Assembly: GCA_015039365.1 (NCBI GenBank)
Contig: WION01000100.1
Span: forward strand, 62,001-126,000
Length of the DNA: 64,000 nt
Direction: 5' to 3'
Source of the DNA: Amanita rubescens
Taxonomy: Eukaryota; Basidiomycota; Agaricomycetes; Agaricales; Amanitaceae
A program made the position numbers and the translations under genes. The notes beneath the pieces are model-generated. The model made no database searches and was not told where the DNA came from. It worked only from the letters and a program-made list of their open reading frames with translations. This document shows positions 46,801 through 64,000 of this stretch, piece after piece; the first letter of the stretch is position 1; every line of letters begins with the position of its first letter.

Positions 46801-47914
46801 GGAATTCGTCCAATTGTTTTTGTTCTTCTGGGTTTAATGGGTATATTTTGCAATCCACCATTTTTGCTCCTGGTGTTAATTCAATCGCGTGGTCCCATGC
46901 CCTTCTCGGTGGTAATTGGTCGAATGTCTGTTTTTCGAATACTTCTTTGTAGTCGCGATAGACTTCCGGTACTATTTCCTTCCAGGTTCTCTCGATTTGG
47001 TTGGCTCCTGCAATATCAGTTGCAAAGTTTGATTTTGCTCGTACTTTTATCCAAGGGAGATCAACGTGTCGTATGAATTCGGGTCGATCAATATCAATAG
47101 CCAATATTTTATCTTCTTCCGGATTATATTGATCGATTTCATCTTCTGGTTCTCTGACCCATGATTCGTCGTAACATTCTCCTGGACATTTTGAGAACTT
47201 TATTTGGGCCTTTCTCCATTCGAGTTCTGGGTTATGATGTTCTAACCAATCATGTCCGAGGAATACGTCTTTCTTTCCAATATTTACCACCGCCAGTTCT
47301 AGTGTTTCTTCATGGTCGTAAATTCTCATCTTGATTGTAACCATGTCCGTTATCTTTCCTCCGACGTTTAACGTTCCGTCGGCATTGGTAGCGGTTATTG
47401 CTCGTGGTAGTTTGGTTGTGTTGATTTTATGTTCCTCGACGAATTGTTTAGATATCGCAGACATCATGCATCCGCTATCGATTAATGCTATGGTGTCGAA
47501 GCTTTCTTCTGTATCCAGGGTGGTGAGGATGATTCGTATGTCCATTTCCCGGTGTCCTGATGCTCCGATCCATTGCGGTTCTCTGAGTTTTCGCAGGTAC
47601 CAGATTGCTTCTTCTTCTTCGAGATCATTGATTTTATTGATTAATTCTTCATCAATTTGTTCTCTAAAGGTTTGGTGGGCAAATGTTCGTAATTGCGTAA
47701 CTCCTTGTTCCGGGTATTTCCATAATTGTCTTATCATCCATGCGGACGATGAATTTCTAAGTTTGCTTGTTTTGTCCCTTATCGACGTATTCCGAATCTT
47801 TCCTTCCTTTTGTTTCACCTCGTATATTATTGATTCAAGGGATACATATTCGGAAGGTACTAGAGATTCATAAATACATCGATCGGAGATCAACGAAGAG
47901 GGACTATCCTTCAT
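43826..47914 (-). CDS. Gypsy Pol polyprotein with chromodomain (1362 aa)
   Basis: Domains in order: aspartic protease (IALIDSGC, about residue 147), reverse transcriptase ([19 protein letters not shown] near 395; YMDD near 507), RNase H ([16 protein letters not shown] near 651), integrase zinc finger (H-H-C-C, ending CHQCQINK), integrase core ([29 protein letters not shown] as D-D-E) and a C-terminal chromodomain ([32 protein letters not shown]), then a Pro-rich tail. The chromodomain directs integration to modified histones in chromoviruses. The ATG overlaps the gag stop codon as ATGA (47914-47911), so translation could start by termination-reinitiation or frameshifting. Confidence 0.96.
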   Translation of the reverse strand: [1362 protein letters not shown]

Positions 47915-49248
47915 TGATCTTTCACAAAACCCAACTTCTCTTTCATTTCCGTCTTTTCTTCTTCGGTCATTGATCCGAAGTAATCTCCTACAGCTTGCCT
48001 TCTAATCACGGTTTTTCCTTTGCAGTATTTTGCGATGTGACCGATTTTTCCACAGTTATAACATTTAGGTGGAGGACGGGTTGTTGGGGTCTGGTCAACA
48101 TCCATTGCGTTTTCGTCTTTGACTTTAACCGTAATCGTTTCTTTTTTTGTTTGACTTGGCCCGGCTTGCGCATTTGTCCTTGTGACTTTGAATTCTCTTT
48201 TACCATAGTACCTTTCGGCTTCTCGGAACTGTTTTTCTATTTCCGTGGCCCTGGTGTACCATGCTTGGAGTTGTCCTGGTGCGCTACCGTCTCCCGGGTT
48301 TCCTAATTCGATTACCCTTCTGCCTACTCCGGTTTTAACACCTTTCTTGAACTGATCGATTAGTGCGATCTCGTCGAATCCCGAGAGTTGAGCCCATCCT
48401 TTAAACTCGATAATGTATTCTTCGATGGTTTTGTCTCCTTGTTTTAATTCTCGCAATTTCTTTATTGCTTCGTCTCTGGTTTCCGTTGTGAGGAAGTATT
48501 GTCTTGCTTCCTCTGCGAATGTGTTCCAGTTTACAAAGGGTGGTTTGTGAATGAAGACATATTCTTCCCATGCCGGATGTTCTGGAGTCGCTTCTTCTGC
48601 TGGTACCGTTGTGCATGCTTGGTAATGGGTACAGGTTCGTCCCGGGTAGGTATTTGCGAACCTGATCCTTTCTTCGTCGTTCTGGGCAATTTCTCCTATT
48701 TTTCCATTTGCCCAGTTTGATGCCCGGTTTCCTTTTCCTTTCCTGATCCGTTGGATTGCATACGTGACCCGTGCGATGTCATCCGTTAACCTTACTTGGA
48801 CGAAGTAATAATTCATCCTTCTGAGCCATGAGTCGATTTCCGCTGGTTCGCCTTCGTAATGTTCCGGTGGTTCTATCTTTAATTCCGGTGGTCGTGTCCT
48901 AAGTCTATCGGCGTCTCTATCGGCTCTTTCTGCGGCTCTTCTTTCTCGTCCGAGTTGTCTTTCAAACTCCTGTTGTTGTTCCTGTAACTGTCGTTGGAAA
49001 TTTTCGTTTTGTTGCCGTAGTTGTCCTATTACGTTTGCAATATTCGCTCCCATTGCTGCGGCAGCGATGGTTGCATCTTCAGTTTCCGTTGCGATAGTTT
49101 CCATTGTAGGTACGGCCGTTGCTGACATTGCTCCAGTGATATTTCCGTGTTCGTCGAAGGTTGGTTGGACAATCTGTATCCTATTTCGTCTCATGATATA
49201 AGTGAATCCTGCCAGCGCGATGGCGGTGAGCGCAGCTGGTAGGGCCAT
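47911..49248 (-). CDS. Gypsy Gag (445 aa)
   Basis: Starts with a hydrophobic segment (MALPAALTAIALAGFTYIM) followed by RRNR, unusual for Gag and possibly a membrane anchor. A coiled-coil-like Gln/Glu/Arg stretch (about residues 70-115) precedes the retrotransposon Gag core (PEHYEGEPAEIDSWLRRMNY ... RQYFLTTETRDEAIKKLREL). A zinc knuckle CYNCGKIGHIAKYC (C-X2-C-X4-H-X4-C) lies near residue 405-418. It forms the particle and binds RNA. Confidence 0.95.
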   Translation of the reverse strand: MALPAALTAIALAGFTYIMRRNRIQIVQPTFDEHGNITGAMSATAVPTMETIATETEDATIAAAAMGANIANVIGQLRQQNENFQRQLQEQQQEFERQLGRERRAAERADRDADRLRTRPPELKIEPPEHYEGEPAEIDSWLRRMNYYFVQVRLTDDIARVTYAIQRIRKGKGNRASNWANGKIGEIAQNDEERIRFANTYPGRTCTHYQACTTVPAEEATPEHPAWEEYVFIHKPPFVNWNTFAEEARQYFLTTETRDEAIKKLRELKQGDKTIEEYIIEFKGWAQLSGFDEIALIDQFKKGVKTGVGRRVIELGNPGDGSAPGQLQAWYTRATEIEKQFREAERYYGKREFKVTRTNAQAGPSQTKKETITVKVKDENAMDVDQTPTTRPPPKCYNCGKIGHIAKYCKGKTVIRRQAVGDYFGSMTEEEKTEMKEKLGFVKDQ

Positions 49249-49392
49249 GGTTTAGCGGGTGTTTGGGGTTGTGTATAGTTGTTGATGTACTTGTGCAATA
49301 TAAACTGCTACAAGGTAAAGGTATGTGAGGTGTGCTATCAGGGCGATAGCAAGGAAGATTCGTAGGAAATTCGTGGTGAGTGGTGTGAAGAA

Positions 49393-52318: not shown

Positions 52319-53478
52319 ATGGCAGCTACAACTAGTGCACCTTCTTTGAGTAGGCTAATTTATATGTCTCAGCATTGTTAATCCCTGATTGACACATATC
52401 AGATGCAGATGATCATGAGACACATGTTCAAGTACTCAGGGAACGCTATCTATGCCCACACTTTCGCATCCTTGTCATTGGAAGGGCTAATGCAGGCAAG
52501 ACAACCATCCTTGAGAAGGTTTGTGGTGTAGCAAAGGGGACAAAGACCAGCATATATGACAAGGATGGTATGTCAGTTGGACTTTGTGCTTCCTTTGACT
52601 GTCAAGTTTCTTGCAGGTAATCAGCTTGAACAGTCTGTGATTCATTTGGTGCCATCAATTGAGGTGAGCCAGATAATGATGTATAGATGTATCCATTCAC
52701 AATCAAGGATAACAGAGAGGCATGCATGATATTGAGCATCAAATTACATACCCTGGAAGTGACTTTATCTTCCATGACTCTATGGGTTTTGAATCTGGTT
52801 CAACTGATGAATTGGAGCTTGCTTGGAAGTTCATTGAAAAGAGGTCTGCAGAAACTGAGCTGAAGAATCAGTTGCATGCAATTTGGTATTTTGCATTTTC
52901 CCTTTACAGTACTGTCTGACCTGACTTCCTGTAGGTACTGTATACCCATGGACAGCCCTCGTCCCATTCTGCCCACAGAACTTGAATTCTTCAATAAAGG
53001 GACAGGCAGTGGTAAGTCCTTATCTTGTTGTTATCTGCTTTCCATTGGCCAAATTTCCACAAAATTCACCACAGTGCACTGACTAGTCCTTTACAGTTCC
53101 TTTGGTGGTTATATTCACTAAGTTTGATGGTCAAATAGCAAGTGAATTTGTCAACTTGACTGATTCAAAGGATGAAGATAAGTGGGAGAGAGCCAGGGAA
53201 ATTGCTGAAATCACTTTTCAGAAAGTTTATCTTCCTAAAGTTTTGGATGTCAAGTATCCTCCCAAGGCATATGTGCGATTGGAAGGTGAGAATGATGAGG
53301 ATTTCTTCCTGAAAAATGGCAGTAATGTCATTTCATAGACATGGATTTACCTGAGAAGAATTGTGCTGAATTAACTCAGCAAACTGCTGATGCAATAGAC
53401 AATGAAAGCATACATCAGCTGTTTGTTTCAACACAGATGAATAATCTTGGTCTTTGTATTAAATCTGCACTTTGGTGA
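52319..53478 (+). CDS. P-loop GTPase (fungal G-domain protein), at least 7 exons
   Basis: Exons: 52319-52349, 52403-52567, 52617-52663, 52716-52885, 52935-53011, 53097-53285, 53339-53478; 819 nt, 272 residues, all GT-AG and in phase. G1 is GRANAGKT, G3 is DSMG, G4 is TKFD in VIFTKFDGQ; the order matches the expanded small G-domain proteins of agaricomycetes, whose role is unknown. As read it ends TTTGG-TGA. If instead a GTGAAT donor at 53475 is used, the next exon (53523-53598, HALGCKDWTWDHGFLMVFSK, FPHFW) continues the typical C-terminus, but the junction codon is TGA. That could be a mutated CGA. Downstream lies the micro-exon chain. Confidence 0.82.
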
Positions 53479-54450
53479 ATGTCATATTCAAAATGTCACT
53501 CACTAACATTGACATTGCTCAGACATGCTCTGGGATGTAAAGATTGGACATGGGATCATGGCTTTCTCATGGTTTTTTCAAAATTTCCACATTTCTGGGT
53601 ATGTATTTTGTCAAACTACATATCACCATAGAAAGAATGCACAGAAATAGGTGGACAGGAAGGTAGGTGACCTTGGTCTGGAATGATAAATCTTTGCAAC
53701 AAGTGCATCAGGAGGTAAGTAACACTCTGATACCTTCACATGAAAACAAGATTAGTCATTGTTCAGATGGCCAATGAAGCACAGGTTAGTTGTTGCCATA
53801 TTCTTGGTGGCAGGATCTGATGATATTGATATCAGTGGGTAAGTGACATTGAACTAAGATAGATCTGATATATTGTCTCATGACAACAGTTTGTGAGTAA
53901 TGCTTTTTTTTGTGATCAGCAGGGTTGTCCCATAATCTACAGGAAGTGAGTGACATGACTCAATTTTGATTTGGGTAAATGATCCCATGGTGCATCATAT
54001 GACCAATAGGAAGTGAGTTAATCTATAATCATTGTAAGCAGACTTGTCAACCCAGTCTCTCATGGGCAGGGAGTGAGTGATACAGTGTGACTGCCTCACA
54101 CAACATTTGACCTGCTTAAAGAAAGTAAGCAACTTCATTGTGCAGCAGTTTATCAAACACAACCCAATGAACAATAGAAGGTTAGTGACATAATGTTATC
54201 TGAAAGATGGTCTCAACAAGCCTCATTGGATTAATAACAGAAAGTCAGTGAGATTTCCTTTCTGTCTGCTCATAAACATTACATGAGTCCCAAAATAACA
54301 GACAGTAAATATGTCTCCTTTTCAAACATTCATCACAAGCAATTACAAAACAAACAGGATGTATGTAATATTTTTGTGAGATATGAGCTCATCATATGCA
54401 ATACTTTAAAAGAGAGTCAGTGGGATTGTTTTCTTTCATTCAATTTTATT
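53479..54450 (+). other. Chain of one-codon micro-exons between short introns
   Basis: After FPHFW the sequence becomes a regular series acceptor-AG, 3 nt, GT-donor. Three-base exons: 53712 GAG, 53836 TGG, 53890 TTT, 53943 GAA, 54010 GAA, 54070 GGA, 54122 AAA, 54178 AAG, 54241 AAA, 54302 ACA, 54358 GAT, 54413 AGA, plus one of 18 nt at 53767-53784. Intervening introns have 49-64 nt and donors GTAAGT, GTGAGT, GTTAGT, GTCAGT, GTAAAT or GTATGT; several have TRAY-type branch sites. Joined they read EMANEAQWFEEGKKKTDR without a stop. The chain is cut by Copia-A at 54451. The junction just before 53712 (about 53599-53662) is unresolved. Confidence 0.6.
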
Positions 54451-55155
54451 TGTTGAACTTATAATATACGATATACATACGGTATATAGTAAATATAAGT
54501 GATATCATTAGTTTACACTAACTAATGTAATAACGCTCAGTTACTTACTCGTCTCTCAACCAATCATAATAGTGGATGATTGAGTGTGAGATAATATATT
54601 GACATGAGAATATATTCGACATATTCTCATACTCATCTACCAATCATAATTGTGGATGATTGATGATGAGAACATATTCTGACATGAGAATATCCTAGCG
54701 ATATTCTCATAAGATCATCCAATCATAATAGTGGAACTATTGATGATGTGAATATATGTTGACATAAGAATAGAAGACATATATACGTTATGGTTATCGA
54801 CCTATCACATTGAAGATTGATAATGTGATGAGTCAGTCAATATAATTGATGAGTCAAGTGCTGCGCAAAGCTATACATTGCTGTACAATAGCTGTGCATT
54901 GCTGTGGAATGACGCCTTATGAGTCAAATACCTTTGACTCACACTGATAAGACTCTTTGTACTTATTTGTAGTTTAGTAGTATATAAACTGTACTCTAGT
55001 AGCGTCAATCCCTATCCTATTATCCTCTCTACTGTCTACTGTTGAGCCCCAGCTCCAGTAAGCTCTTAACAACTCCACACCACACTCAGTAAGTAGTACA
55101 TTCTATGTACTAGACTGCGCTGCTCGCTAGGGACTTGTTACCCCTAGTTTCAACA
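54451..55155 (+). repeat. Copia-A copy 2 5' LTR (705 bp)
   Basis: TGTTGAAC...TTCAACA. Contains the three 80-bp repeats (about 54551-54771) and a hairpin near 54805-54832 (ATCACATT/AATGTGAT). Confidence 0.95.
54981..54988 (+). promoter_or_regulatory. TATA box of the Copia-A LTR
   Basis: TATATAAA, conserved in copy 1; transcription would start near 55010. Confidence 0.6.
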
Positions 55156-55170
55156 GGTTATGGGCCCCGA
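55156..55170 (+). other. Copia-A copy 2 primer-binding site
   Basis: GGTTATGGGCCCCGA directly after the LTR, as in copy 1 and Copia-B. Confidence 0.85.
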
Positions 55171-56381
55171 AACCAGACGCCTTTGGCGCTATTGGTTGTG
55201 AAGCCAAGCGACGCACACTCTCAAGTCATTGACGGAGAGAAAAGGTAAAACAAAGGTAACTGGGCGAGGCGCCCAGTGTGGTTTTCATTTTCTTGTTAGA
55301 TTAGTCACCGCACTTGGCTAACCCTTCTGGGAAGTGAGGGATAGACTCTGAGTCATCCGCTTACCTAGATTGTATACGCCCGGACCCAGGGCTAAGGGGA
55401 CCCCGTTATTACTCAGCGGTCTAAATTACGAGTATCCCTGTACAAGGGACCGTCTTGGATGACGTTAAAAACCGGCTTAGATCGCCTTAAAAATCTCGCA
55501 GTGGACCATTACTGTGTCAATAGAAATTGGCTCACTTGTGAAGTGTTAACTTCACCGGTTATTACCTACCGTATAAAAAGGTAACGTCCCACACTGTATT
55601 CCGCTTGGGCAGTGTGATGTGATTGGACGTATTGAACCACGCTATACCATCATCAGGATTTTCGATCCTGTAAAATACCTAATATATGTACAAGTAATAA
55701 TAAATTCTAGTATAAGGGGTGAGATGAGGTCACATTGTGGACCGTACACTCTGCCTATCGAGAATGCGCCCTTAGGGACTTCTCTAGATTAGGAATACAC
55801 TCAGCTGTAACCCAGCGGTGTCTAGATTAATTCTTAAAAACTTGTACATACACGTCTAGTGGGGGATTGAGACCCCATAGACCATCTAAGTGATGGACTT
55901 ATCTCATGCGTTTGGGAATGCAGTCGTTATCGTCATGGTTATTCCAGAGATTAAACGGTTATCATTTGATCGTTTAAGAAGGGACAAGGGCCGATCCCCG
56001 AGTCTTTAATCTATTGTCAGACGCTTAGGTTGGCTATTCTTACCTACATTGGATCATATCCCACGCAAATATTATGCTGCGTTATTAGATGCTAAAAACA
56101 TCGAAGTGGATACCAATGTGACATAGATCTTGGTTAATATAACACCTTTCATAACGATTAGTACCAAATTCAACATGCATGACAAGAAGAAACAATGATG
56201 TGCGAAACTTGTGCCGAAACATCCAATTTGCGTACAAATTATCTGTTTTCTGGGATTAGTAAGGGCTGAAGGCTCTGAACGCCCATTCCTTTCTTTTGAT
56301 CTTATCCAAAGAACTATGTGATGATTAAACCTCCTGATTTCAGCAAAAATTTTAAAATCAATTTTTTCAATTTATATAAAA
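55171..56381 (+). other. Copia-A copy 2 long 5' leader
   Basis: About 1.2 kb, no long frame, strongly conserved with copy 1. Confidence 0.7.
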
Positions 56382-57635
56382 ATGTCGTTTGTAAACTCTT
56401 TCTCGCCGTTGTCTTCTGCTGGCGGTGCCCTTGGCACTCCGATTTCTTCGAGGACAGTCCCCTCTCGGACTACCCCGAACAATTTGCCCGGCTCTGGCGC
56501 CCGGCATCTCCAGGCCCCCGTTAGGGCCTTACCAAAGAATTCGCCGCCGCCTGCAAAGGCACAGGTACCAGAAATGGTACCTTCATTACGTATTCCTGTT
56601 CCGACTTCTGCGCCTCAAGCTGTGAGGCTTAATAGGAACTATAAAAAGTATCCTGTTCCCATGGGCTCGCGCCCATATATGCCTCATGCAGCAAAAGGCT
56701 GCCACTGTTCGCATCCCGATGCGATACATCATGTACACCGCTGTGTACAAAAAGTCGTCTTCGACTATAAAGGAGTCCCGACGGCTCCTAAATCAATGCG
56801 GAGCCCAACAGGTCAGTCTTCTAGAAATACTAGGTGTGCATCTTTATCTCATAAAGATAATCTAGTCTCTTACGCCAAGGCCGCGAAGGCTGTTGGGCCA
56901 GTCTCTCGTCCACAAGGACGACCTACTATCGTCAACGAAGGTTGGCGATATAACAAAGATCGTGGATCACCTTGGATCCACAACACTAAACCGGAAGAGT
57001 GGTCCTATGGACCACCAAACAATGCCCATGTCCAATTCAGGCCAGTCACCAAAAACGACTGGCATAAGGGTAATCGTCAATGGAAAAATAAGACGAATAT
57101 CCCTAATGCTTTGGATTCGGATGCGTACCGCCAACATTTCCTTGGCATCGCATCTGACGAAAGGGGCAGAATTCCTCTTCCGGAGGAGATTACTCAAATA
57201 TACAAAAAAGGAAAGGTAAATACACCTTTTAACGTATATAAGACCCAACTAAAACATAATACAGAACAAAAAGGATGGCGAAAGTCAACAACACCTACCT
57301 GGAGTAGATGCGCCCCCAACATTGCAAGTTGGGGATATATCGTATCTAAAACTCGAGCCCAAAGCAGAGCGGCTGGAGTGTTTCCTTCAAATCAAGAGGG
57401 AACCGAAGTGAAAAGGGTTGTTGACGAATATAGTAATGACATGGGAATATGGCAGGAAACTGGAAGGCTTCCCGGACGGTATAAAGACTTTCCTCACATA
57501 AAATTACCTAAAGAATCTATTTTCGACAAACTTGTCGATGATAGAGACAATAGGAGGGCTAGATTCGCATCTAACCCTGTGACGGAAATTCGATATTACA
57601 TACCTGAAAGGACGTGTAAAAAAGATATTCCCTAG
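56382..57635 (+). CDS. Copia-A ORF1, accessory protein of unknown function (copy 2, 417 aa)
   Basis: The counterpart of the frame at 4918-6168. ATG 56382 follows TTTATATAAAA; the in-frame length is 417 residues. It has a Pro/Ser-rich N-terminus, a Cys/His cluster at residues 107-121 (C107, C109, H111, H116, H117, H119, C121) that might bind a metal or nucleic acid, and a C-terminal half rich in Lys, Arg, Trp and Tyr. It ends 192 nt before gag-pol in a different frame, so gag-pol must be reached by a separate mechanism such as a spliced or internal start. No homolog known to me. Confidence 0.85.
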   Translation: MSFVNSFSPLSSAGGALGTPISSRTVPSRTTPNNLPGSGARHLQAPVRALPKNSPPPAKAQVPEMVPSLRIPVPTSAPQAVRLNRNYKKYPVPMGSRPYMPHAAKGCHCSHPDAIHHVHRCVQKVVFDYKGVPTAPKSMRSPTGQSSRNTRCASLSHKDNLVSYAKAAKAVGPVSRPQGRPTIVNEGWRYNKDRGSPWIHNTKPEEWSYGPPNNAHVQFRPVTKNDWHKGNRQWKNKTNIPNALDSDAYRQHFLGIASDERGRIPLPEEITQIYKKGKVNTPFNVYKTQLKHNTEQKGWRKSTTPTWSRCAPNIASWGYIVSKTRAQSRAAGVFPSNQEGTEVKRVVDEYSNDMGIWQETGRLPGRYKDFPHIKLPKESIFDKLVDDRDNRRARFASNPVTEIRYYIPERTCKKDIP

Positions 57636-57827
57636 TTTACTTTCTAGTATTAACACTAGATAGTAAAAATACTATATTCTTGTCATTTTTGACATGAACG
57701 ACATTAAGCTTAAGAAATCAGGACGGAAATTACATCATCACATATATTCTTATGCCTTATTATTATTTGAACCTTTTCTTACGTAAAATCTTCTTAGATT
57801 TTAAACAAACTTAACCAAAGTAAGAAA

Positions 57828-60800
57828 ATGTCTTCTTCCAATTCGATAAACTCCATTGTTCCTGTTCTTACCGGATCAAATTGGCTTGCATTCGAAAGAC
57901 TTATGACTGCGTACTTAAACAGTCAAGGTCTTGGTGCACATATTGATCCTAAACTTGATTGGCCCAGAGATCTTGAACCATCTGAAAAAGAGGCGATCAA
58001 GACATCTGATATAAAGCCAGATCAGTTAAAAACCCTTAAAGAAATTCGCAAAGAATACGTCGAATTTAAAGAGGACAATATGAAAGCCAAAGGTTACATT
58101 ACCTTAAAACTAGCACCTAATCTAGTACACCTTGTTGACGATAAAAATGATAAAGCCGAAGTCCTTTGGAAATCTCTAAAGGATAAATTTGGTAAACAAG
58201 GTCTGGCTGCTACGTTTGGACTCTATAGACAAATTGTCGACTGGAAACTCAAAGAGAATTCCAATCCCAACACTCAAGTTCCGCATCTTATGGACTTGAT
58301 TAATAGAGTGTCAAACCAAGGTGTAACCTTAACTGTCAAAATGCAAATTATGACGATCCTACATGCCTTACCTCCTTCATGGGACAGCTTTGTCGCAAAT
58401 CTGTTGGCACATTCCGCAGATGATGACACTGTAGATCAATTCCTTAATCTCATATCTGAGGAATGGTCCCGAAGGAAAGGTAACAGGAACAATGCCAATA
58501 CTTCTGTTGTCACGAGAGGGAATAAACATTCTAACTCTCAAGTAGTTGCAAATATGGCACGCCAACAATTGCAACAAGGACAACCTCGCACCCCTTGGAA
58601 TTCCTATCGTGGGAAATCCTTTCGAGGCAGAGGTGGAAGAAAACCAATGGGAAATCGAAGAAACCCAACACAACATACTTCGACAGGTGGACCATCTAAT
58701 GGACCAAAACATACACCTGGCCAATCTCAGACTCCTTTTAGACCCCAATGGGCTGGTCAAGTCCCTAATCAGTCTAAAGGACCAAATTGGGAACGCAATA
58801 AGGCAGCTAAAGCAAAGAATCGTGCGAATAAACTTGCTGCTCGCACAGCAGCTCAATCAACACTTGGTTCTGGGCATGCTATGGCATCTTCGACATCAGC
58901 ATCTTTACCTCTGATTGCCAGAATTGGAGATCAGGTAATGACAGATTTTGATGAAGAATTTGTCCCCAAGATTTACAAGTACAAAGGTACTCGTGCGGTT
59001 CCCACGGACGACTTCATGGGGAGAATTGATGAGATATCCGAAGATTCGGGAGATTCTGTATCCAGAGATGTACAAAAAGTACGAACTGAATCAACGGACT
59101 ACTCTGATATCTTTGATTCTGCAATATTTGCAGATACTAAGGATACTCAAAGTTTGGACGATCTTGCTAGTCCTATCTTTGCTTCCTCTAGTATATCCCA
59201 TCATCAAACCGATAATGAAGGATATCAAACAGATAATGAATCACATCAATCTGAGGCCAATTCTTCAGGGTATGAAGGACTTTATACCGATGAGGAGCCT
59301 GAAGGACCAATGCCTGGTTCCTTTGATGATGAACAAATAAGTTGGTGGTATGTACATACCAGACAATATTATGTGGATCAAGTTCGACGAGCTAATTTGG
59401 AAGCTCGAAGAATGAATACTAATGCACGCACTTTAGAACACTTACAAAATATGTTGAGAGGGATGGTAAATGACCATGACACTGTATCCCTCCGACCAGA
59501 ATCTGTAAGTTCATCAGATTTAAATTACTTTTACCAATCTGATCAAGATTCTGTTTACCATACGGCTCCAGAATCTATGGCATCATCTCAAATCCCAACA
59601 AGGCCTATTACGCCTTATGAAGATTTTTTTAATTTATACGATTATCCAACTAATCGTACTATTGATACTGTACCGGTAATACCATCAAATGTACCGATAG
59701 TAAACCCTACACCAAGAAGATCTATTGATCTTCAGAATTTATATTATTTTGATGCCAATATGCGTGAGAATGAAAGATATAGACAAAACATGTCTAATCT
59801 TCAAAATCTTCCAAATCATGGAACATTCTCTGAATTATATAATCAATATAACTTAGATGAATTCATAATAGAAGAAAACAATCGAAGACGTGCTAATGTT
59901 ATTAACATTGGACATCTTCAAGATCCATATAATCTACCTTGTAGTAAATCACCTTCTTGCAAATGTCCTGAATGTTATAAAAATAATAAAGGACTTACAA
60001 TATGGATGTGTGACTCAGGTGCATCACATCATTTTACCGCACACTTAGAAGATTTTGTCAGCTATAAAAAATATGAAGTTCCTACTTCAGTATTTACAGC
60101 TGATAATCAAGCAGATATATTAGGTATAGGGACTGTGATTTTGGATCACACTCTTAAAAATGGTTCGGTTTCAAGATTGAAACTTTATCCGGTCCTACAT
60201 ATGCCAAGTGCCACACTACGACTAATAAGCAATGGAACATTGTGTAAACAAGGTTTTATTGCAAAACAAGATAATGATAGGATTTCTTTCTACAGAGAAG
60301 GCTCTGAAAACGCATCACTGGAAGGATTTCCAGGAGATGGTAACGAAACATTAATGTGGACAGAAGGTCAAATTATTAAACCTTCAAATTATAAATTAAT
60401 GATGACCACTATTAATGTTGTTGGATATGAAATTTGGCATCAACGGATGGGTCATCCTAGCCAACAAATATTGAAATTAGGCTCTAAAAACTTAGAGGGT
60501 TTCCCTCCCTTAACAATTCCTAAAGACTTAGAACCTTGTAACGGTTGTCTAAAAGGAAAAGCTGTTTCACAAAGCTTTCCTCTTTCAGAAAAACGTGCTA
60601 CCCAACCCTTTGAACGTATACACTGTGACTTGATGACTTTTCCAATACAATCTTATCATAAACAAAAATATTTACTTGTAATATTTGATGATTGTACATC
60701 TCATGTATGGGTAAAACCATTACAGAAAAAGTCTAACGTCGCTGTAGTATTTGAAGGCTGGCACAAACAAATATACAACCAATATGGATATAACATAAAA

Positions 60801-63800
60801 ATAGTTCGTTCCGATCGAGGGGGCGAATTTATGTCCACCAATATACAAGATTACTTAACTGATGTAGGAATTATTCATGAAAAATCTACTCCATATATAC
60901 ATCAACAAAATGGAAAGGTTGAACGCATGAATAGAACACTTTGGGAGAAAAGTGAAGCATTGAGATTACATGCTTCATGCCCTCAATCTTGGTGGAACTT
61001 TGCGATCGAAACTGCCGTACATGTTTATAATCGTACTCCACTTAGACGAACCAAATGGAAGACCCCTGTTGAAAATCTTACTGGAAAGAAACCTGATGTT
61101 TCTTACTTTAAGATATTCGGATCTAAAGCTTGGGTATTTATCCCACATGAATCGCGCGAAAATAAATTAACACCAAGGTCTGAAATAATGACCTTTATTG
61201 GATACGAACCGAATGCAAAAGCATACCGCTTCATGACAAATACAAATCAACTTCGAGTATCCACCCAAGCTGAATTTGATGAAACCAAATTTCCAAGAGC
61301 CAAACCTCAAGATGAAAATTATACAAAAAACTTGGACCCTATCAGGCCTATTGAGCAGGATAATTCTGAAAACTCAGATAAAAATATCTCTGATGGTAAA
61401 CCAAATAATGAAGGAGATATTTCATCTGAACAGCAGCATTCAGATGATGATTTCTTTGATTTCAACTTTGAAAATCATTCAAGTTCTGATTCATCAGACA
61501 ATGATGATGATGATACTAAATGGGATGATAAATTAGAATCTTTCTTTGAAAAGAAAGATACATCTTCAAAAGACAAAGGTGCTGAATTAGATCAACCTAC
61601 AGGCGTTGAATTAGATCTACCTGTACAAAGTCTTAAAGATAAACCTACTAAAGGAAAAGGCAAAGGAACTGCTAAAAAACCTGTAGAACCTACTCGAAGA
61701 TCTGAAAGATCTAGAAAACCGGTTATACAGAAAGACAATGCTTATGGTAATAAAACACCATTAGAAATTGAAAAAGAAATTACAGAAGAACAAGATGTTG
61801 TTCGAGAATTAATTCAAGATCTTAAAGAAAAAGATAAATCTGATCCAAGACTTGATGTTACAATCAGATATTCTCTTAGATCTAAAATACGACAACATAT
61901 TGATAAAGTTAAAGTACTTTATTCAACATTACACAATGCTCAAATTAATGAAATGTCATGTCTCATTAAAGAGCAAGGTAATGGTTTTCTGAATTACTTA
62001 CTCGCACAAGCAATTCCTGCCATTGATATTTCAAGAGACAATATCAGAGAATATCAATACAAAGATATTCAAAAAGTCAAAATTGCTGATCCCAAATCTT
62101 ATGAACAATGGGAGACAGCAATGAATGATGAAATGAAATCATTGAATGATAGAAAAATCTGGGAGCTTGCAGAATTACCTCATAATCGTACACCTATTAA
62201 ATGTAGATGGGTATATGATATTAAATCTGACGGTCGAAAGAAGGCTCAACTTGTCGCTAAAGGATTTTCTCAAAGACCTGGACTTGACTATGATGAAACG
62301 TTTTCGCCTGTGGCAAGATATGAAACGATTCGCCTTTTGTTAGCAATATCTGTGCTAGAAAAATGGGATATTGAAGCACTAGATGTTAAAACAGCCTTTT
62401 TGTACGGAGATCTCGAAGCGGATATCTATATGCAACAACCAGAAGGTTATGTAGTCAAAGGCCAAGAACAAAAAGTTTACCAACTTAAAAAGGCAATATA
62501 TGGACTTAAACAAGCCTCATATGCCTGGAATAAACAAGCTAATAAATCCTTAGAGGATTTAGGATTTATACGCTGTTTATCTGATTCTGGCGTATACGTC
62601 AGAAGAGAAGACGACACTATAATAGTGTGTATAGTATATGTCGATGACATGCTTTTCATGGGTGACAGTACACCAGAAATTCATAAAGTTAAAAATGCTT
62701 TTATGAAGAAATGGGAATGTCATGATCTTGGAAAAGTTAAAGAATACTTAGGTATGCAAATCAATTACAATAAGAACATGGGTACTCTTATTATTGATCA
62801 ACATGCATACGCTAAGAAGGTTGTAACAAGATTTGGTTTAGAAAATTGTAAACCAACTCGTACACCTTTACCAACAGGATATATTCCAACTGCTGCTACA
62901 AAAGAATGTACAGCAGAAATGCGATCTTATTTTCAACAAATAATAGGATCGTTGTTATATCTTGCATTAGGAACAAGACCTGATATTACTTATCAAGTAA
63001 TATTAATGTCTCAGTTTTGTGCAAACCCAAATGAAGAACACATACAGAAAGCATTATACATAGTACGCTATGTTAATACCACTGTACAAACTAAAATAGT
63101 TTATAATGGTTTAAACAAAGAAGGCTTTGTAGCCTTTACTGATGCTGACTGGGGTGCTGACAAGATTACAAGAAAATCTGTCACTGGATATATAGTAAAA
63201 CTCGCAGGAGGTGCTATATCATGGGTTTCACGAAAACAAAAAGTAGTGGCACTGTCTTCAACTGAAGCAGAATACATGTCAATGTCTGATACATCAAGAC
63301 AAATAGTTTGGATTGAGTCACTTATGAGTGAACTCGATTTTCCAATTAAAACTATTTTCTTATGTTGTGACAATCAAGGAGCAATGTTCTTGGCCAGTAA
63401 CCCTGCACAAGAACATCGTTCAAAACATATTGACATAAGATTCCACTACATTAGACAATGTGTCGAAAGTGAGAAAATTAAACTCACATACATTCCTACC
63501 AATGAACAAGTTGCGGATATAATGACCAAAAATCTACCATATTCAAAATTTGTAATATTCCGAATGAAGATGGGATTAATCCTAGATGATAGTCAAATAT
63601 CATTAACTAATCATATTAGGGCATCACAAACTTTTGCTAATTATATTAAAAGTAAAACCCTTAATAAGTCCCCAGGACAACATAGTAAAATATTTGAAAG
63701 AATTCAAGATCTTGAAGTGCGAGGATATCTTGAAGAAATCTTTAAATACTATGAAAGAGAAAATGATAAATTGACTACCCTTTTGAAAGCTAATAAATAA
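57828..63800 (+). CDS. Copia-A Gag-Pol polyprotein (1990 aa)
   Basis: One frame. Gag: UBN2-like core (about residues 15-220, LTGSNWLAFERLMTAYLNSQ), Arg/Gly/Gln-rich part near 245-330, then a long acidic and Tyr-rich spacer (about 380-700) and a Cys cluster (CSKSPSCKCPEC), but no CCHC knuckle. Protease CDSGASHH near 728. GAG-pre-integrase WHQRMGHP near 870. Integrase core: IHCDLMTF near 932, VRSDRGGEF near 995, KVERMNRTLWEK near 1031. Reverse transcriptase from WELAELPHNR near 1445 with YVDD near 1604. RNase H with FTDADWG near 1768 and SSTEAEYM near 1811. About 1990 residues is long for a copia polyprotein, mostly because of the spacer and of the acidic linker before reverse transcriptase. 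Confidence 0.97.
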   Translation: MSSSNSINSIVPVLTGSNWLAFERLMTAYLNSQGLGAHIDPKLDWPRDLEPSEKEAIKTSDIKPDQLKTLKEIRKEYVEFKEDNMKAKGYITLKLAPNLVHLVDDKNDKAEVLWKSLKDKFGKQGLAATFGLYRQIVDWKLKENSNPNTQVPHLMDLINRVSNQGVTLTVKMQIMTILHALPPSWDSFVANLLAHSADDDTVDQFLNLISEEWSRRKGNRNNANTSVVTRGNKHSNSQVVANMARQQLQQGQPRTPWNSYRGKSFRGRGGRKPMGNRRNPTQHTSTGGPSNGPKHTPGQSQTPFRPQWAGQVPNQSKGPNWERNKAAKAKNRANKLAARTAAQSTLGSGHAMASSTSASLPLIARIGDQVMTDFDEEFVPKIYKYKGTRAVPTDDFMGRIDEISEDSGDSVSRDVQKVRTESTDYSDIFDSAIFADTKDTQSLDDLASPIFASSSISHHQTDNEGYQTDNESHQSEANSSGYEGLYTDEEPEGPMPGSFDDEQISWWYVHTRQYYVDQVRRANLEARRMNTNARTLEHLQNMLRGMVNDHDTVSLRPESVSSSDLNYFYQSDQDSVYHTAPESMASSQIPTRPITPYEDFFNLYDYPTNRTIDTVPVIPSNVPIVNPTPRRSIDLQNLYYFDANMRENERYRQNMSNLQNLPNHGTFSELYNQYNLDEFIIEENNRRRANVINIGHLQDPYNLPCSKSPSCKCPECYKNNKGLTIWMCDSGASHHFTAHLEDFVSYKKYEVPTSVFTADNQADILGIGTVILDHTLKNGSVSRLKLYPVLHMPSATLRLISNGTLCKQGFIAKQDNDRISFYREGSENASLEGFPGDGNETLMWTEGQIIKPSNYKLMMTTINVVGYEIWHQRMGHPSQQILKLGSKNLEGFPPLTIPKDLEPCNGCLKGKAVSQSFPLSEKRATQPFERIHCDLMTFPIQSYHKQKYLLVIFDDCTSHVWVKPLQKKSNVAVVFEGWHKQIYNQYGYNIKIVRSDRGGEFMSTNIQDYLTDVGIIHEKSTPYIHQQNGKVERMNRTLWEKSEALRLHASCPQSWWNFAIETAVHVYNRTPLRRTKWKTPVENLTGKKPDVSYFKIFGSKAWVFIPHESRENKLTPRSEIMTFIGYEPNAKAYRFMTNTNQLRVSTQAEFDETKFPRAKPQDENYTKNLDPIRPIEQDNSENSDKNISDGKPNNEGDISSEQQHSDDDFFDFNFENHSSSDSSDNDDDDTKWDDKLESFFEKKDTSSKDKGAELDQPTGVELDLPVQSLKDKPTKGKGKGTAKKPVEPTRRSERSRKPVIQKDNAYGNKTPLEIEKEITEEQDVVRELIQDLKEKDKSDPRLDVTIRYSLRSKIRQHIDKVKVLYSTLHNAQINEMSCLIKEQGNGFLNYLLAQAIPAIDISRDNIREYQYKDIQKVKIADPKSYEQWETAMNDEMKSLNDRKIWELAELPHNRTPIKCRWVYDIKSDGRKKAQLVAKGFSQRPGLDYDETFSPVARYETIRLLLAISVLEKWDIEALDVKTAFLYGDLEADIYMQQPEGYVVKGQEQKVYQLKKAIYGLKQASYAWNKQANKSLEDLGFIRCLSDSGVYVRREDDTIIVCIVYVDDMLFMGDSTPEIHKVKNAFMKKWECHDLGKVKEYLGMQINYNKNMGTLIIDQHAYAKKVVTRFGLENCKPTRTPLPTGYIPTAATKECTAEMRSYFQQIIGSLLYLALGTRPDITYQVILMSQFCANPNEEHIQKALYIVRYVNTTVQTKIVYNGLNKEGFVAFTDADWGADKITRKSVTGYIVKLAGGAISWVSRKQKVVALSSTEAEYMSMSDTSRQIVWIESLMSELDFPIKTIFLCCDNQGAMFLASNPAQEHRSKHIDIRFHYIRQCVESEKIKLTYIPTNEQVADIMTKNLPYSKFVIFRMKMGLILDDSQISLTNHIRASQTFANYIKSKTLNKSPGQHSKIFERIQDLEVRGYLEEIFKYYERENDKLTTLLKANK

Positions 63801-63815
63801 CTTAGCGAAGGGGAG
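63799..63815 (+). other. Copia-A polypurine tract
   Basis: AACTTAGCGAAGGGGAG directly before the 3' LTR; primes plus-strand DNA synthesis. Near-identical in Copia-B. Confidence 0.85.
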
Positions 63816-64000
63816 TGTTGAACTTATAATATACGATATACATACGGTATATAGTAAATATAAGTGATATCATTAGTTTACACTAACTAATGTAATAACG
63901 CTCAGTTACTTACTCGTCTCTCAACCAATCATAATAGTGGATGATTGAGTGTGAGATAATATATTGACATGAGAATATATTCGACATATTCTCATACTCA
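63816..64000 (+). repeat. Copia-A copy 2 3' LTR, first 185 bp
   Basis: Matches 54451-54635 with no difference seen by eye; runs off the window. Confidence 0.95.

Follow-up and report, generated by a model that had tools for sequence, protein, structure and literature searches.

The Amanita rubescens genome contains a large family of GTPase genes, and the window analysed here (the whole 64,000-nt stretch of DNA) includes one damaged copy of it, followed by an array of one-codon exons that is real, more than chance would yield, and larger than first described. An intact gene of this family probably comprises a P-loop GTPase, approximately 15 fairly conserved one-codon exons, a hypervariable segment of further codon exons (from about 12 to more than 70 residues, each encoded by its own exon) and a conserved C-terminus, with the hypervariable segment varied by exchange and selection. 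If this is true, a single gene has the spliceosome remove some 50 or more short introns with just one codon between neighbours, a demand that probes how far intron definition can go, and the usual rule that exons are conserved while introns drift is inverted.

A sequence-only reading of the window had proposed 13 exons on the plus strand between 53712 and 54415, all of them 3 nt long except for one of 18 nt, and every one of them was located again (Table 1). The intervening introns, given by that reading as 49-64 nt, measure 52, 51, 51, 50, 64, 57, 49, 53, 60, 58, 53 and 52 nt, and the joined codons yield the stop-free peptide that it had derived, E-MANEAQ-W-F-E-E-G-K-K-K-T-D-R. It had also proposed a genome-wide shuffle test of how often such arrays arise by chance. 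When splice chains were searched without a set exon length, the interval 53601-54440 scored 119 with 13 introns, above the maximum of 65 reached in 300 dinucleotide shuffles of the same interval, in which 3-nt exons averaged 0.04 per shuffle and never exceeded 2. Eight of the 12 codon exons were scored as 3 nt in this search; at three weak sites exons of 17, 27 and 18 nt were taken instead, and comparison with sister copies favours 3-nt exons there as well. Within 53700-54440 the pattern AG-N(g)-GTNAG has 11 matches with g = 3 and at most two with each other g from 0 to 15, and a search of both strands of the window for runs of at least three AG-NNN-GTNAG sites spaced 130 bp or less apart returned one, consisting of ten sites from 53709 to 54242.

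Table 1. Features of the GTPase gene copy in the window and of the element that interrupts it (window positions).
Feature	Position	Strand	Evidence or remark
GTPase coding exons	~52403-52567, 52617-52663, 52716-52885, 52935-53011, 53097-53285, 53339-53474	+	Exons lifted between copies, homologues, weak MMR_HSR1 matches; list begins at 52403, a putative short first exon upstream being left out
Linker exon, phase 2 to 0 (..HALGCKDWTWDHGFLMVFSKFPHFW)	53523..53598	+	Open through this exon in 17/21 copies
12-nt exon VDRK	53651..53662	+	Counterpart VDRA in P0009, VGRD in P0043
Codon exon GAG (E)	53712..53714	+	GTG (V) in several sister copies
18-nt exon MANEAQ	53767..53784	+	30 nt in 18/21 copies
Codon exon TGG (W)	53836..53838	+	Conserved in sister copies and P0009/P0043
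Codon exon TTT (F)	53890..53892	+	Sister-copy models, P0009/P0043
Codon exon GAA (E)	53943..53945	+	Sister-copy models, P0009/P0043
Codon exon GAA (E; Q in most copies)	54010..54012	+	Sister-copy models
Codon exon GGA (G)	54070..54072	+	Sister-copy models, P0009/P0043
Codon exon AAA (K)	54122..54124	+	Sister-copy models, P0009/P0043
Codon exon AAG (K)	54178..54180	+	Sister-copy models, P0009/P0043
Codon exon AAA (K; GAA in most copies)	54241..54243	+	Weak donor GTCAGT; alternative exon TCA 54245-54247
Codon exon ACA (T)	54302..54304	+	Sister-copy models
Codon exon GAT (D)	54358..54360	+	Sister-copy models, P0009/P0043
Codon exon AGA (R), last before LTR element	54413..54415	+	Splice-site chain
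Target site duplication TTATT	54446..54450	+	Repeated after the LTR 3' end (~C3:126528); present once in L009, where the site is empty
LTR element (ends TGTTGAA..TTTCAACA)	54451..64000, extends past the window	+	Interrupts the array

The window copy is damaged in two ways. The array does not end at 54415, as had been supposed, but is interrupted by an LTR element beginning at 54451 and resumes at approximately C3:126528, beyond the window; the element carries an ORF of 2000 aa (57798-63800), from the motif order of which we take it to be of the Copia type. The GTPase had been read as ending at 53478, and the translation of the window copy does stop there; in most copies, by contrast, the frame runs on via the donor at 53475. 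A stop codon TG|A spans the junction 53473-53474/53523 in the window copy and in L009, so that the translation of the window copy ends at the linker junction either way; the corresponding codon is CG|A in L010, L012 and L024 and CA|A in most others, and TG|A is possibly a copy-specific nonsense change, C to T at a CpG. An open frame spans all the GTPase and linker exons in 17 of 21 copies; the exceptions are the two with this stop and the frameshifted L013 and L011.

A search of the 75.7-Mb assembly (786 contigs) located the GTPase family at no fewer than 52 places, 40 scored at 78-100% identity and 12 from a second search; some of these are identical or nearly so (C667, C239, C79), and the 52 therefore include haplotype or assembly duplicates. 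Chain models of 20 fetched copies contain from 18 to 86 exons of 3 nt per copy, values that are lower bounds for L009, L016, L017 and L018, where the model reaches the end of the fetched stretch, and that are cut short by frame breaks in L021, L024 and L025; L010, L015 and L026 include odd long exons. The open frames of these 20 models are partly built in, because only stop-free exons of length 3n were admitted. The earlier statement that the introns share no sequence and form no tandem repeat is correct for the old part of the array, which lies in the window; it fails for sister copies farther on, where the introns are tandem, near-identical 62-mers (GTGAGTGACATTG...CCAACAG), each followed by a triplet, making a tandem repeat unit of 65 bp over most of the array. 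As for the suspicion that gene predictors miss the array, four A. rubescens gene models (P0001-P0004) end at or before it; since gene finders can miss such arrays, other genomes may hide the same. Elsewhere in the assembly, a pattern listing includes a related array at G000:C8:77458-80444 with a mostly 56-bp period and a similarly small codon set. Arrays of the same introns at L037-L040 (G000:C1) have no recognisable window-type GTPase within 3 kb, and could represent either remoter members of the family or free-standing arrays.

On the evidence of length, stop avoidance and frame in these sequences, the triplets are read as codons. Strictly flanked intron-intron junctions (CCAACAG, then GTGAGTGACATTGC) across the whole genome measure 3 nt in 987 cases, 2 nt in 13, 4 nt in 6 and 6 nt in 9, in a count covering gaps of 2, 3, 4 and 6 nt (total 1015), with zero matches to reversed control patterns; the 2-nt and 4-nt junctions are confined to four contigs (C13, C749, C254 and C599). 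A shorter pattern, ACAG-NNN-GTGAGTGACATT, has 1630 genomic matches, and 3 nt is also the length of 536 of the 560 flanked junctions inside the 20 loci. Only one stop triplet was seen among 901 in the 20 loci, versus 59 expected from position-wise base composition, and one among 435 versus 31 expected in nine loci picked to reduce redundancy, although triplets are not independent draws because units are duplicated; the array of L025 includes one TGA triplet. Six copies picked for locatable 3' exons (L012, L015, L020, L022, L023 and L028), which represent two lineages (L028, and the group of the other five), could be joined to the end and have 45-54 codon exons, then an exon ending in ..HIDG, the borders of this last exon being set by eye to fit the frame. 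With no rule for frame or stops, all junctions found in L012, L020, L022, L023 and L028 measure 3 nt, save for a single 6-nt junction in L028, and zero stops occur; L015 has one 4-nt junction, which its model skipped, so that five of the six joined copies are clean. Off-length junctions break the frame in L024 and L021. The C-terminal piece of L022 is homologous to the end of P0054, a relative (44% identity over 63 residues, E 8e-13). Because the frame runs into this conserved C-terminal exon, the array is an internal segment, and not the protein tail for which it had been taken.

Two proteins appear to carry the spliced product. P0009 (WFEKGKKESDREIEY; 386 aa, 1446-nt contig) and P0043 (WFEHGKKDTDKQIVY; 311 aa, 1903-nt contig), both from JGI data, are uninterrupted across what A. 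rubescens has as some two dozen exons, and contain the codon-exon peptide in the same order as the WFEEGKKKTDR of the window: P0009 reads VDRA-V-TNEQLSETK-W-F-E-K-G-K-K-E-S-D-R-E-I-E-Y and P0043 reads VGRD-E-MANKQLSEAQ-W-F-E-H-G-K-K-D-T-D-K-Q-I-V-Y, each continuing into variable residues. We take both to derive from spliced transcripts, apparently of related species, although a processed gene copy would look alike, and on this comparison they support the codon exons being really joined. Together with the triplet length and the avoidance of stops far past the window, they bear out the proposal that the peptide is built codon by codon from spliced one-codon exons. A search with the P0009 tail matched P0009 and P0043 only, and among 20 proteins matched by tail alignment, 13 (P0121-P0128 and P0136-P0140) gave no further spliced tail; several homologous ORFs, P0126 and P0128 among them, appear by eye to run into introns, and P0035 may be a more distant spliced case.

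In domain searches of 63 homologues, several of whose models stop before the array, MMR_HSR1 matched 59, NACHT one (E 0.009) and ANK none at E 0.01. The joined predicted proteins of L022 and L028 gave weak matches to P-loop GTPases/NTPases, and to DUF7619 at up to E 1, and none to NACHT, ANK or WD40. Pfam gave no confident GTPase subfamily; in fold likeness the IRG proteins (Irga6, Irgb10, GM4951) rank top, nearly tied with EngB and septins.

The codon exons fall into a conserved and a hypervariable part. About 15 adjoining the linker are alike between copies (W F E Q G K K E T D R E I K Y), and among seven representatives their bases differ by 5.7%, those of their introns by 9.6% (introns more than 45% apart excluded); 34 of 40 codon changes among the seven alter the residue, so that this count gives no sign of protein-level constraint in the conserved part, a point against our explanation. 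Farther on the relation is reversed: between neighbouring units found by pattern, exon bases differ at 1019 of 1827 positions (56%; 0.558) and intron bases at 1490 of 37391 (4.0%; 0.040), with values of 28% and 0.3% in L021. The units are thus near-identical apart from one codon, yet the near-identical part is the intron and not the protein. In L014, 23 of 26 introns, and in L019, 21 of 22, are letter-identical to the master, with codons that differ. Between gene copies the pattern recurs: L012 and L020, with GTPase genes 98.8% identical, differ in their arrays at 55 of 144 exon positions and at 24 of 2794 in the introns; the pair L011/L019 (GTPase 99.0%) at 13 of 138 and 3 of 1794, plus large length differences; and L022 and L023, whose GTPase parts are identical, at 4 of 213 and 4 of 3390, the exon changes lying in two adjacent codons, one of them altered at all three bases. 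Other close pairs, L015/L022 and L009/L010 (GTPases 98.5-99.6% identical), hold most of the array in common, which counts against our explanation. The array of the window copy is set apart from that of L009 by just 1 of 141 exon bases and 3 of 2724 intron bases.

Codon use is narrow. Among 374 triplets from 13 arrays, CGA accounts for 70 of 70 Arg codons, CAA for 63 of 63 Gln, GGA for 43 of 43 Gly and GAA for 34 of 34 Glu, and Leu in the hypervariable part is mostly CTT (34 of 54) or CTA (15 of 54); over the 901 hypervariable codons of the 20 loci, the third base is A or T in 88% and the middle base is C in 2.6%, perhaps reflecting avoidance of new AG or GT sites. L009, whose introns have diverged (the 72 introns of its older array average 11.8% from the master), has the same A- or T-ended codons, and a splicing constraint may therefore impose them. 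Consistent with use as introns, the terminal AG and all donor bases other than number three change little in this older array of L009 (0-7%), against 7-38% for most inner bases, a difference partly required by the model.

Such an array could be spliced by intron definition, the introns of approximately 50-64 nt being taken out one after another; neighbouring introns could hardly be bound together because acceptor and next donor lie 3 nt apart, and sequential removal is therefore likely. The near-identical 62-nt introns would at the same time serve as homologous spacers for unequal exchange or conversion among units and gene copies, by which codons would be gained, lost and swapped with the frame kept, and selection would maintain the variety of the peptide, in the manner of fungal receptors that combine conserved repeats with hypervariable codons. 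The repeated intron markers and repeated unit block of L012, and a marker displaced between L015 and L022, favour unit exchange in this comparison of sequences, and the near use of a single codon per amino acid looks as if a small set of units had been reshuffled, which would likewise favour exchange. Exchange and selection do not account for the almost invariable A or T in third position, which is counted against them. Block exchange as evidenced by common codon strings was dropped, since no string of six or more codons is common to any two of the 13 array groups and strings of four or five are within the shuffle range. A whole-array donor for L012 and L020 was likewise rejected, the best other matches being 95% and 97% identical among the best 40 of 226 and of 227 candidates, respectively; both results weigh against our explanation. 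A hairpin serving as break point at the junction was discarded too, since the unit folds no better than its shuffles, whether as RNA or as DNA. From the pattern of variability we would guess at a role in self/non-self or symbiosis recognition.

The main competitor of exchange is a mutational process targeted to the junctions, which would rewrite the 3 nt between introns while selection keeps the length at 3 and the triplets free of stops. L024 (G000:C749), in which the GTPase is intact, has 17 of 44 junctions off-length (0, 1, 2 or 4 nt) versus 11 of 42 introns, giving P of about 3e-16 if changes were spread evenly along the unit; these 17 of 28 length changes are beyond what exchange accounts for, and the junction itself may therefore be a mutation hotspot. 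The codon wholly changed between L022 and L023 with adjoining introns unchanged, and the master-identical introns of L014 and L019, also fit such a process. Against it, random rewriting would have to be under a strong extra constraint to leave almost a single codon for each amino acid across 374 triplets, the window copy and L009 are only a single exon base apart, and we know of no enzyme or template for rewriting junctions. We consider it unlikely as the principal cause and rank it second, behind exchange with selection for variety. A burst of introners, in which a mobile intron entered between all the codons of what had been an ordinary exon in the ancestor, would account for near-identical introns common to different gene copies, and P0054 does have a segment at the same place with similar flanks; it is nonetheless most improbable, as insertion would be required every 3 nt in phase 0 and codon strings differ between copies with GTPase genes 98.8-99.0% identical. 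The related suggestion of an intron-gain hotspot, if taken to mean that introns entered a single ancestral exon, is disfavoured on the same ground, because near-identical copies would then have equal codons, and those of L012 and L020 are not in common. Still less credence is due to a non-coding minisatellite in an intron or 3' UTR whose likeness to splice sites is merely apparent: the 65-bp tandem unit and the A. rubescens models ending at or before the array would suit it, but stop avoidance, the fixed 3-nt junction, the frame into a conserved C-terminus and the intron-free proteins with the spliced peptide contradict it.

Two further readings are compatible with exchange and selection, or extend them. 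Splicing might leave out now one set of codon exons and now another, a single gene thus giving many peptides; every skip would be in frame, since the codon exons are of phase 0, and the nank genes of Tuber melanosporum offer a precedent, according to papers that cite the case (PMC9815663, PMC4986451, PMC3689799, PMC10197012). Codon differences between copies at the DNA level already give variety and make skipping unneeded, and we regard this possibility as somewhat doubtful. With rather more conviction, though still tentatively, the family could be viewed as a germline generator of random peptides, in which introns act as recombination spacers (or mark the junctions to be rewritten), single codons are shuffled, gained and lost in frame, and dozens of genes come to hold codon strings of their own, together forming a repertoire of variable segments for recognition; 13 distinct groups of codon strings occur among the 20 copies read. 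The logic would resemble that of repeat-shuffled immune receptors, but at single-codon resolution. A stretch that differs almost completely between near-identical gene copies does look like a way to make variable protein parts.

It had been thought that nothing like this array was described, which does not hold. Codon-sized microexons occur in the NACHT-ANK (nank) genes of T. melanosporum (Iotti et al. 2012, Fungal Biol 116:261), according to the statements of citing papers (PMC4986451, PMC3689799, PMC9815663, PMC10197012). As described there, the two systems are alike in being expanded families of an ectomycorrhizal fungus with tens of 3-bp coding exons; those of Tuber encode ascomycete NACHT-ANK proteins with alternative splicing, whereas the Amanita genes are basidiomycete GTPases. 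Relative to these descriptions, what is new here is the other protein family and phylum, the near-identical introns, and the hypervariability of single codons between them in the DNA of different gene copies. No literature report of codon-exon arrays in Amanita or another basidiomycete is among the matches listed; if our reading is true, this is the second fungal case of an array of codon-sized exons, and its dozens of natural copies make diversification measurable. One paper states that functional microexons had previously been undescribed in filamentous fungi (PMC11121469), in conflict with those citing the Tuber case. In plants, microexons of 1-15 nt are known and exons down to 1 nt are spliced; those described in the accessible part of PMC8831610 are single or two adjacent and conserved across species, and long hypervariable arrays are not among them.

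The NLR hallmark NOD (NACHT or NB-ARC) was not found as a feature of the Amanita proteins (the 63 homologues and joined L022 and L028). Fungal introner-like elements spread through many genes, whereas the Amanita introns, which share their near-identity, follow one another in tandem with 3 nt in between and, to the extent of this analysis, belong to a single gene family. Introner-like elements are described as families of near-identical spliceosomal introns within one genome (PMC4457414). The WD40 repeats of the Podospora anserina NLRs het-d and het-e are kept alike by concerted evolution but include hypervariable sites on which diversifying selection acts, as summarised in PMC12222747; in those proteins the repeat itself is translated and forms beta-propellers, whereas in Amanita the repeated part is intron, the hypervariable codon alone being exonic.

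Two other features of the window were noted. An 80-bp tandem repeat of 2.7 copies lies at 54556-54772, near the start of the LTR element. On the minus strand, an ORF of 446 aa (47911-49251) contains a CX2CX4HX4C motif, presumably a zinc knuckle of a gag-like protein.
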